NCBI GenBank assembly: GCA_003152355.1
Contig: PMAA01000198.1
Location: 1 to 34,154, forward strand
Reading direction: 5' to 3'
Source of the DNA: Acidobacteriota bacterium
GTDB taxonomy: Bacteria; Acidobacteriota; Terriglobia; Acidiferrales; UBA7541
Length of the DNA stretch: 34,154 nt
Shown here: positions 26,745-28,628 of the stretch, piece by piece
Layout of the letters: the number at the start of each line of letters is the position of its first letter
Position numbering within the stretch: position 1 is the stretch's first letter
Notes under the pieces: generated by a model
Seen by the model: the letters and a program-made list of their open reading frames with translations, nothing else
What the model was told of the DNA's origin: nothing
Databases searched by the model: none
Translations under genes and position numbers: made by a program

Positions 26745-28628
26745 CTACTTCGACGCCGCGAATTTCAGCGGTAACACCATTGATGTCGGCAGGCTGGCTT
26801 CCCAGACTTCCAACGTGGCAACACTCGCACTCGCTGCCTGATATTCCACGTCGTAGGTTTCGCCGACCGTCAGGAACATGTCGGCTGTCGAACTTTTCAG
26901 CTGCGCCGGCGGCAAGTCCGCGCCGTCTTTCGCGATTATTTTCCATTGCACCGGAGCGCCGTCGCTCGTGAGACGCACGCGCATGTCGACGAAATTGTCG
27001 GTGATGTTGATCAATCGCAGCCGATATCGCGTTCCGGCCTGCAGTTGGAGCGGATCGGGCTGAGGATTGCCGTTAATCAGCAAGAGATAGCCGAACGGAT
27101 CGTACTTGCCGATGCTGAAGACGATGGTCCGGTCACGCTCGGGATCGTACTTTTGTCCCGGTTCGAGAACGATCAGCGGTCCATAGATTCCATTCAGAAT
27201 TTGCGTTGGGTCGTGCCAGTGTGTGTGATAGATAAATGTTCCGGCGCGCGGCGGAGTCATGCGCGCGATGAAGGATGTCCCTGGCGAGATGGCCGGTGAA
27301 AGTTTCTCGTTTGTGCCGGTCCAACCGGAGACTCCATCGTAGTAGCTTTCAATCTCTATTCCGTGCCAGTGAATCGTCGTTGGCTGGGTGGTCTGGTTCT
27401 TCACTTCGATGTCTGTTGTCTCTCCCCGCGTCAAAATGATCGGCGGCCCGAGCCAAACGGGCGGCGCAGTGGCGCCCGGAGCGGCAGTCGCTGGCGGCGG
27501 TGCCAACGGATCTTTCACCTCGAGCCTAAAGAGCGGAATCTTCGCCGGATTCTCCGAGATCACGAGTTGCAGTTTCCGCGCGTCTCTCTTCGCCACTGGT
27601 GCCACTGCCGAATTCGAACTCGGAAGCACCGTGATTCCAATCACAAGGCTGCCCATCGTGGGGCCATGATCGTGGTCCGGCGAGTAGCCGGCGGGCTCGG
27701 GTGCTGGAGGATGGAGAGACTCCGACGGCAACATGTGCACAACCATGTGGCAATGGAAGAGCCAATTCCCCGCGCGGTCGGGCGTCCACGTCATGTCGAA
27801 CACGTGCCCGACGTCAATCAATTCGGTGACGGCCTTGCGACGCTGGTCTTCCGAGTAACGCTCGTAGTGCTCGCCGTCACCGACCGCATCGACATTGAAA
27901 AAGAAACCGTGCAGATGCATTGCGTGCGGAGAGACCGTCGGATTGATCACTCGCCAATGAATTGTCTCGCCGGTCTTGTAAGTTACGCGCTCGTCAAAAG
28001 GCCATGCTTTGCCGTTTATGGACGCGATTTCCACGCCGTCCGCGGCAAAGAAGTCCTTGCCCCAAAGACCGAGAACGAAAATCCTGTCGTCCGGCCTAGC
28101 TCCCGGCGGATCGATGATGAACGCGCCGGAAAGCATGGTCTCCGCAAGTTCGCGAGTGTCGAGGGAATGGTCCGAAGTTGCTGCCCAGTACATGTACGTT
28201 CCCGGTTCGCCCGCGACGAATTGAACATCGCGCGATTCGCCCGGTGCGACACTGATCTCGTCTTTCGGATCTCCCGGATGGCGATGCAGGCCGTAAATTT
28301 TGGCGGCGATGGGAAGCGCGTTTCGGACACTGGCGTGAATCTGCGTTCCCTGCGGCACCCGGATCAGCGGGCCGGAGCTTTGCGGCGCATGTCCTTCCTC
28401 CGCGAACGCGTAAATATCTCGATGGGCGCCACCTTCATCTTCCGGATACCAGACGCTCTCGTGCAATTCGAGACGCAAATTCAAAACGCCATTATTAAAT
28501 TGACCGGCAGGAGTTCGATTGTCGTTCGCGACTACCTTCGGCAAATCCGATTTCGGCGCAGACTGCGCAAATGCTGCCGCGCTGAATAAGACCAGTATTC
28601 CTAACCCGAGGAACTTCCAATGCCGCAT
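26745..28628 (-). CDS. Exported multicopper oxidase with permuted copper motifs
   Basis: The protein has 627 residues with a signal peptide (residues 1-21, cleavage after AFA). Four cupredoxin-like domains are inferred. Domain 1 (about 40-175) has degenerate copper motifs: GLHRHPGDP and GTYMYWAATSDH where HWHG and YHSH would be. Domain 2 (about 185-335) has SPHAMHLHG (H235, H238, H240) and FHCHMVVHM (H292, C293, H294, H298), the motifs usually at the C-terminus. Domain 3 (about 350-490) has TIHWHG (H420, H422) and IYHTHWHD (H468, H470), the motifs usually at the N-terminus. Domain 4 (about 500-627) has no obvious copper ligands. All type 1 and trinuclear ligands are thus present but in order 3-4-1-2. 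The start is chosen for CGGAG five bases upstream of the ATG and the signal peptide. Substrate unknown; a laccase, metal-oxidase or other role is possible. Confidence 0.87.
   Translation of the reverse strand: MRHWKFLGLGILVLFSAAAFAQSAPKSDLPKVVANDNRTPAGQFNNGVLNLRLELHESVWYPEDEGGAHRDIYAFAEEGHAPQSSGPLIRVPQGTQIHASVRNALPIAAKIYGLHRHPGDPKDEISVAPGESRDVQFVAGEPGTYMYWAATSDHSLDTRELAETMLSGAFIIDPPGARPDDRIFVLGLWGKDFFAADGVEIASINGKAWPFDERVTYKTGETIHWRVINPTVSPHAMHLHGFFFNVDAVGDGEHYERYSEDQRRKAVTELIDVGHVFDMTWTPDRAGNWLFHCHMVVHMLPSESLHPPAPEPAGYSPDHDHGPTMGSLVIGITVLPSSNSAVAPVAKRDARKLQLVISENPAKIPLFRLEVKDPLAPPPATAAPGATAPPVWLGPPIILTRGETTDIEVKNQTTQPTTIHWHGIEIESYYDGVSGWTGTNEKLSPAISPGTSFIARMTPPRAGTFIYHTHWHDPTQILNGIYGPLIVLEPGQKYDPERDRTIVFSIGKYDPFGYLLLINGNPQPDPLQLQAGTRYRLRLINITDNFVDMRVRLTSDGAPVQWKIIAKDGADLPPAQLKSSTADMFLTVGETYDVEYQAASASVATLEVWEASLPTSMVLPLKFAASK

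Follow-up and report, generated by a model that had tools for sequence, protein, structure and literature searches.

A four-domain multicopper oxidase family with copper motifs in the order 3-4-1-2

In laccases the trinuclear copper cluster lies between the first and the last domain of the chain, and in two-domain multicopper oxidases (MCOs) it lies between subunits. A gene on an Acidobacteriota contig (PMAA01000198.1; the 34,154 nucleotides analyzed are hereafter the window) encodes an MCO of 627 aa in which the copper motifs follow each other in the order 3-4-1-2. Can such a chain assemble a working copper site, where would that site lie, and how did the arrangement arise? The swapped order is already known from six-domain MCOs, and the four-domain form described here is a compact variant, not a new kind of enzyme. 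We consider it probable (roughly three in four) that the protein is an O2-reducing MCO of a distinct four-domain family, with the T1 copper in domain 2 (D2) and a single trinuclear cluster at the interface between D2 and domain 3 (D3).

Copper motifs and domain architecture

The gene starts with ATG, and direct reading of its translation showed a signal-like N-terminus (MRHWKFLGLGILVLFSAAAFA), which suggests that the protein is exported or secreted. Along the chain we found HxxHxH (H235-AMHL-H240), HCHxxxH (H292-CHMVV-H298), HWHG (H420-WHG, 420-423) and YHTH (Y467-HTH470). Pfam Cu-oxidase_2 (205-299) likewise precedes Cu-oxidase_3 (392-490), with Cu-oxidase matching at 517-599. No NCBIfam model for CopA, CueO, ascorbate oxidase or laccase came near its cut-off (copper_res_A, 98.8 bits versus 479; CueO, 74.6 versus 525).

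Each chain comprises four cupredoxin domains (D1 to D4; Table 1). Profile comparison typed them as A-like, C-like, A-like and C/B-like (A'-C-A-C/B), where A stands for laccase domain 1, B for the middle domain and C for the T1-bearing domain. The chain can be written A'-C-A-B, in which the first and fourth domains are inert, the second bears T1 and the third completes the trinuclear site. Specifically, D2 provides the T1 ligands together with one half of those of the trinuclear site (H235, H238, H240, H292, C293, H294, and H298), and D3 holds the other half (H420, H422, H468, and H470); the ligand table recorded all of these residues in 14/14 diverse members. The ligand set of the MCO superfamily (His, Cys, and His for T1, and the eight trinuclear His of HxH, HxH, HxxHxH, and HCHxxxH) is therefore complete, and a working O2-reducing oxidase is predicted from it. 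D1 and D4 lack copper ligands, and in the domain alignments the counterparts of the 11 D2/D3 ligands are not retained as a set in either of them. The original prediction had described a degenerate first domain and a ligand-less domain in the C-terminal half. The latter was borne out, as D4 has no T1 or trinuclear set. For D1 the loss of trinuclear ligands was upheld, but the ligand columns showed that the His residues of its GLHRHPG segment do not form a normal HxH. In D1 a gap and H/Y/R/T occupy the motif-1 columns, and mostly W and R/A/S/T occupy those of motif 2.

Table 1. Features of the four-domain multicopper oxidase gene, in window coordinates
Feature	Position	Strand	Basis
Four-domain multicopper oxidase gene, 627 aa	26745..28628	-	ORF/translation; Pfam Cu-oxidase_2/_3/Cu-oxidase
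Signal-peptide-like N-terminus, residues 1-21	28566..28628	-	Sequence reading; model helix 2-19
Domain 1 (40-175), Cu-oxidase_3-type cupredoxin, trinuclear His set lost	28104..28511	-	Profile comparison, ligand table
Domain 2 (178-336), Cu-oxidase_2-type, T1 site and four trinuclear His	27621..28097	-	Pfam, profile comparison, ligand table
Motif 3, H235xxH238xH240	27909..27926	-	14/14 in ligand table, near-invariant in 26-member alignment
Motif 4, H292-C293-H294-xxx-H298	27735..27755	-	Sequence, 26-member alignment, ligand table
His-rich low-confidence loop 299-324, ending at Met325	27654..27734	-	Ligand table; pLDDT <50 at 304-323
Domain 3 (347-492), Cu-oxidase_3-type, motifs 1 and 2	27153..27590	-	Pfam, profile comparison, ligand table
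Motif 1, H420-W-H422-G	27360..27371	-	Sequence, 26-member alignment, ligand table
Motif 2, Y467-H468-T-H470	27219..27230	-	Sequence, 26-member alignment, ligand table
Domain 4 (495-625), Cu-oxidase_2/middle-domain type, T1 and trinuclear set lost	26754..27146	-	Profile comparison, ligand table

The axial T1 ligand was not found at its usual place, since the position +5 after H298, where the axial Met normally stands, is not conserved in the family; this counts against reading the protein as an ordinary MCO. The loop that follows H298 varies between 21 and 36 residues and contains 10% His versus 4% overall, and the residue at its end (Met325 here) is Met in 25/26 members and Phe in 1/26. Because Met325 sits immediately ahead of the final strand, where laccases have their axial Met, it is probably the axial ligand of the T1 copper. 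The alternative that the site is incomplete or non-functional, and the protein a copper-binding or structural one with no oxidase activity, could draw on this non-canonical axial position and on the low model confidence of the loop beside the T1 site. Nevertheless, all T1 and trinuclear ligands are strictly conserved even in distant members, and we consider this alternative very improbable.

The loop itself (window 27657-27734), which is His/Asp-rich and poorly predicted in the model, is present throughout the family and might serve to bind additional copper or a substrate metal.

Distribution of the family

Among more than 55 homologues whose sequences were checked (Acidobacteriota, Gemmatimonadota, Bacteroidota, and other taxa), the swapped motif order is fixed. 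A scan of GTDB genomes retrieved 36 loci, among which 28 (L001-L028), L022 excepted, show the swapped order in every complete stretch, and eight (L029-L036) are ordinary three-domain enzymes. The motif residues were all invariant or nearly so in an alignment of 26 members sharing 35-75% identity with the window protein, and the order was confirmed in 30/31 further loci from other genomes. In the one exception (L044; G006:C3:180351-182140) the gene is split across two reading frames and lacks motif 3, through either a frameshift or a sequencing error. The recurrence of the order in the aligned members and further loci argues that it is not due to chance, frameshift or an assembly artefact, and the 3-4-1-2 order read originally from the translation of a single gene was thereby confirmed. 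Moreover, the D1 to D4 profiles match in the same order across the 31 further loci, one set in each, partial ORFs excepted.

In the Acidobacteriaceae locus L022 (6019-7578) an in-frame loss of about 100 residues removed HCHxxxH and kept the other three motifs; this is either an inactivated copy or an assembly fault.

Frequencies were estimated with a D2-D3 profile that only a swapped-order protein can match end to end. Gemmatimonadota were positive in 77/249 genomes, with up to five copies each, compared with 4/296 genomes of Bacteroidota and 4 end-to-end matches among 297 of Acidobacteriota. Among 398 genomes of Pseudomonadota, a full-length match was obtained only in the genome that had already yielded a member. 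Three of 60 relatives of the window's genome carry the gene, one of them split over two frames, and one family member sits on a complete plasmid of the isolate Gemmatirosa kalamazoonensis. The abundance and paralogy in Gemmatimonadota argue for a selected function and suggest a real physiological role in these soil bacteria; we found no study of such a role for four-domain MCOs of Gemmatimonadota in the open-access literature, nor any account there of the biochemistry of a family member.

By default, the substrate candidates for the MCO superfamily are phenols or metal ions. Gene neighborhood was considered as a further clue and dropped, since neighbors vary from locus to locus. In the window, the adjacent genes encode a glycosyltransferase and an aminopeptidase P. 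Ten neighbor proteins that were examined belong to unrelated Pfam families. No conserved neighbor pointing to a substrate was common to more than four family loci, and the 20 Gemmatimonadota regions had no shared neighbor save one protein cluster in six and another in three.

Predicted structure and proposed mechanism

The AlphaFold2 model of the whole protein reached a pLDDT of 83 and a pTM of 0.84, and the model of the D2-D3 pair was moderate (pLDDT 75, pTM 0.71). Queried with Foldseek against the PDB, the whole chain gave its highest TMq among the matches listed to MnxG (0.66, 9bxa), followed by ceruloplasmin (0.60-0.63) and laccases (0.30-0.36), the last being low because laccase domains stand in another order. 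These matches have an rmsd of 6.7-10 A, so that the packing is only roughly ceruloplasmin- or MnxG-like. On the one hand, the modeled overall packing would resemble that of ceruloplasmin; on the other hand, ceruloplasmin has six domains and its trinuclear site between domains 1 and 6. The D2-D3 pair matched ceruloplasmin (TMq 0.51-0.59) and factors V/VIII (about 0.5-0.57) better than two-domain laccases (0.26-0.30), which suggests that the predicted D2/D3 contact is unlike the contact within a two-domain unit. The predicted contact is compatible with a trinuclear-site interface. The original proposal of one trinuclear site between D2 and D3 of a single chain thus finds support in the complementary ligand halves and in modeled contacts resembling those of a six-domain MCO. 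By sequence, the closest solved proteins were three-domain laccases (4f7k and 6vox) and two-domain laccases, and MnxG was absent from the best 60 of 242 PDB sequence matches.

From these observations we infer the following mechanism. A reducing substrate would give electrons to the D2 T1 copper, held by H235, C293, H298, and probably M325. The electrons would travel via the Cys293-His292/His294 bridge to a single trinuclear cluster, coordinated by H238, H240, H292, and H294 of D2 and by H420, H422, H468, and H470 of D3, where O2 would be reduced to water. The cluster would lie between consecutive domains of one chain, as in MnxG-type and algal Fox1-type enzymes. The protein may function as a monomer, with D1 and D4 as structural caps.

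Relation to known oxidases and possible origins

The original prediction knew of no described family with this arrangement, which agrees with our search of the open-access literature for the four-domain form but is wrong for the motif order. In all bacterial six-domain MCOs analyzed by Vasin et al. (2013, PMC3600357), as in green-algal ferroxidases, the trinuclear His are located in domains 2 and 3. In the bacterial proteins domain 2 alone carries T1, and algal ferroxidases keep T1 sites beyond domain 2 that were lost in prokaryotic proteins (PMC3600357). The MnxG-type Mn oxidases (Bacillus MnxG, PDB 9bxa, and the 23 bacterial and archaeal sequences of that study) therefore share with the 627-aa protein the order 3-4-1-2, T1 in D2 and the D2/D3 trinuclear site, but have six domains and 1217-2681 aa. 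Algal ferroxidases (Chlamydomonas Fox1, Dunaliella) are similar in their trinuclear His and differ in being six-domain and eukaryotic. Published mnxG primers span about 700 bp, forward from motif D to motif B (PMC3039467), which implies the same motif order as in the 627-aa protein. Type B two-domain MCOs (SLAC, CjMCO, and plasmid 'copper oxidases') have alternating A and C domains, T1 in C and a trinuclear site where the C of one unit meets the A of the next, but they form trimers of two-domain chains (PMC13151041), whereas here both units are in a single chain, which has kept only one site. Three-domain bacterial laccases are the nearest solved structures by sequence; they, like CopA and CueO, have three domains and the order 1-2-3-4, neither of which holds for the 627-aa protein. 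We found no description of a four-domain MCO family of 620-700 aa, or of a permuted one, in the open-access literature: MCOs of two, three or six domains are the ones named in a 2026 paper (PMC13151041), and the profiles of a large survey of bacteria were limited to two- and three-domain forms (PMC3192119).

The origin of the family was addressed with A-type and C-type domain trees of two-, three- and four-domain MCOs, in which each of D1 to D4 formed its own fully supported group. The original prediction saw a fused pair of type B two-domain oxidases that lost complementary sites. D1-D2 and D3-D4 would then derive from the same kind of two-domain unit, and the site would work as proposed above. 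The alternating domain types (A'-C-A-C/B) fit this scenario, D1 matched best, at up to 45.7 bits, the profile of the first domain of two-domain MCOs encoded on plasmids, and D4 matched the second domain of such proteins over most of its length. Likewise, D1 and D3 as sisters were not rejected (lnL difference 0.12), nor were D2 and D4 (p 0.2). Against it, D2 grouped with the third domain of three-domain laccases in two trees (98/92 and 99/93), and a concatenated-core tree placed three- and four-domain MCOs apart from the two-domain ones (95/89). Fusion is a possible origin, with the odds leaning somewhat against it. The grouping of D2 (99/93) would instead suit a three-domain laccase that was circularly permuted (C-A-B) and preceded by an additional degenerate domain of type A, produced for instance by tandem gene duplication followed by deletions. 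The highest hhalign scores of D3 and D4 were also to laccase domain 1 (197) and the laccase middle domain (73), respectively, although the larger three-domain profile set inflates such scores. However, the grouping of D4 with laccase middle domains reached only 72/40 and was not recovered with broader sampling, and the A-type D1 requires an additional internal deletion, so we regard permutation as possible but doubtful. The rejection of D2 with two-domain C domains by AU test in a narrow sample (p 0.048) was lost in a broader one (p 0.387) and is not claimed; with the broader sample none of the tried topologies, fusion and permutation included, was rejected. Truncation of a six-domain MnxG/Fox1-type relative by loss of domains 5 and 6 would account for the shared motif order and site location (PMC3600357) and for MnxG having the top TMq among the matches listed. 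It appears unlikely, considering that the solved proteins nearest in sequence are three- and two-domain laccases, with MnxG outside the best 60 of 242.

MCO classes have been sorted as two-, three-, and six-domain, and evolutionary models predict intermediates. At just under even odds, we suggest that the proteins described here form an undescribed four-domain class whose trinuclear site lies between D2 and D3; its center would be in Gemmatimonadota, with sporadic transfer into Acidobacteriota and other groups. Three-domain laccases may have gone through a two-unit stage, of which this class would retain all four domains but with the opposite units active. Such a class would provide a small and probably expressible model of the MnxG/Fox1 arrangement and a direct test of how a trinuclear site survives domain loss and permutation. 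Such proteins could escape profile searches built on the order 1-2-3-4.

Several other MCOs were encountered in these searches. A contiguous-looking candidate for a six-domain relative in Pseudomonadota (G666) was discarded, as it proved to be an MCO of three domains in normal order with a long insert rich in His and Met. In locus L092 (1990-4164), likewise a three-domain MCO of normal order, about 130 residues rich in His and Met are inserted between the middle domain and the third. L093-L105 are two-domain proteins with T1 in domain 1 and were set aside as comparators. Five plasmid-borne proteins of about 615-680 aa (L110, L111, L112, L118, and L119), one of them annotated DUF4396, have a two-domain MCO in their C-terminal half. 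Finally, a three-domain MCO of 518 aa on a Niallia plasmid (L114, 955-2511) has a T1-like middle domain that scored 52 bits to the D2 profile and 32.6 to the D4 profile, and is a possible intermediate for laccase middle domains.
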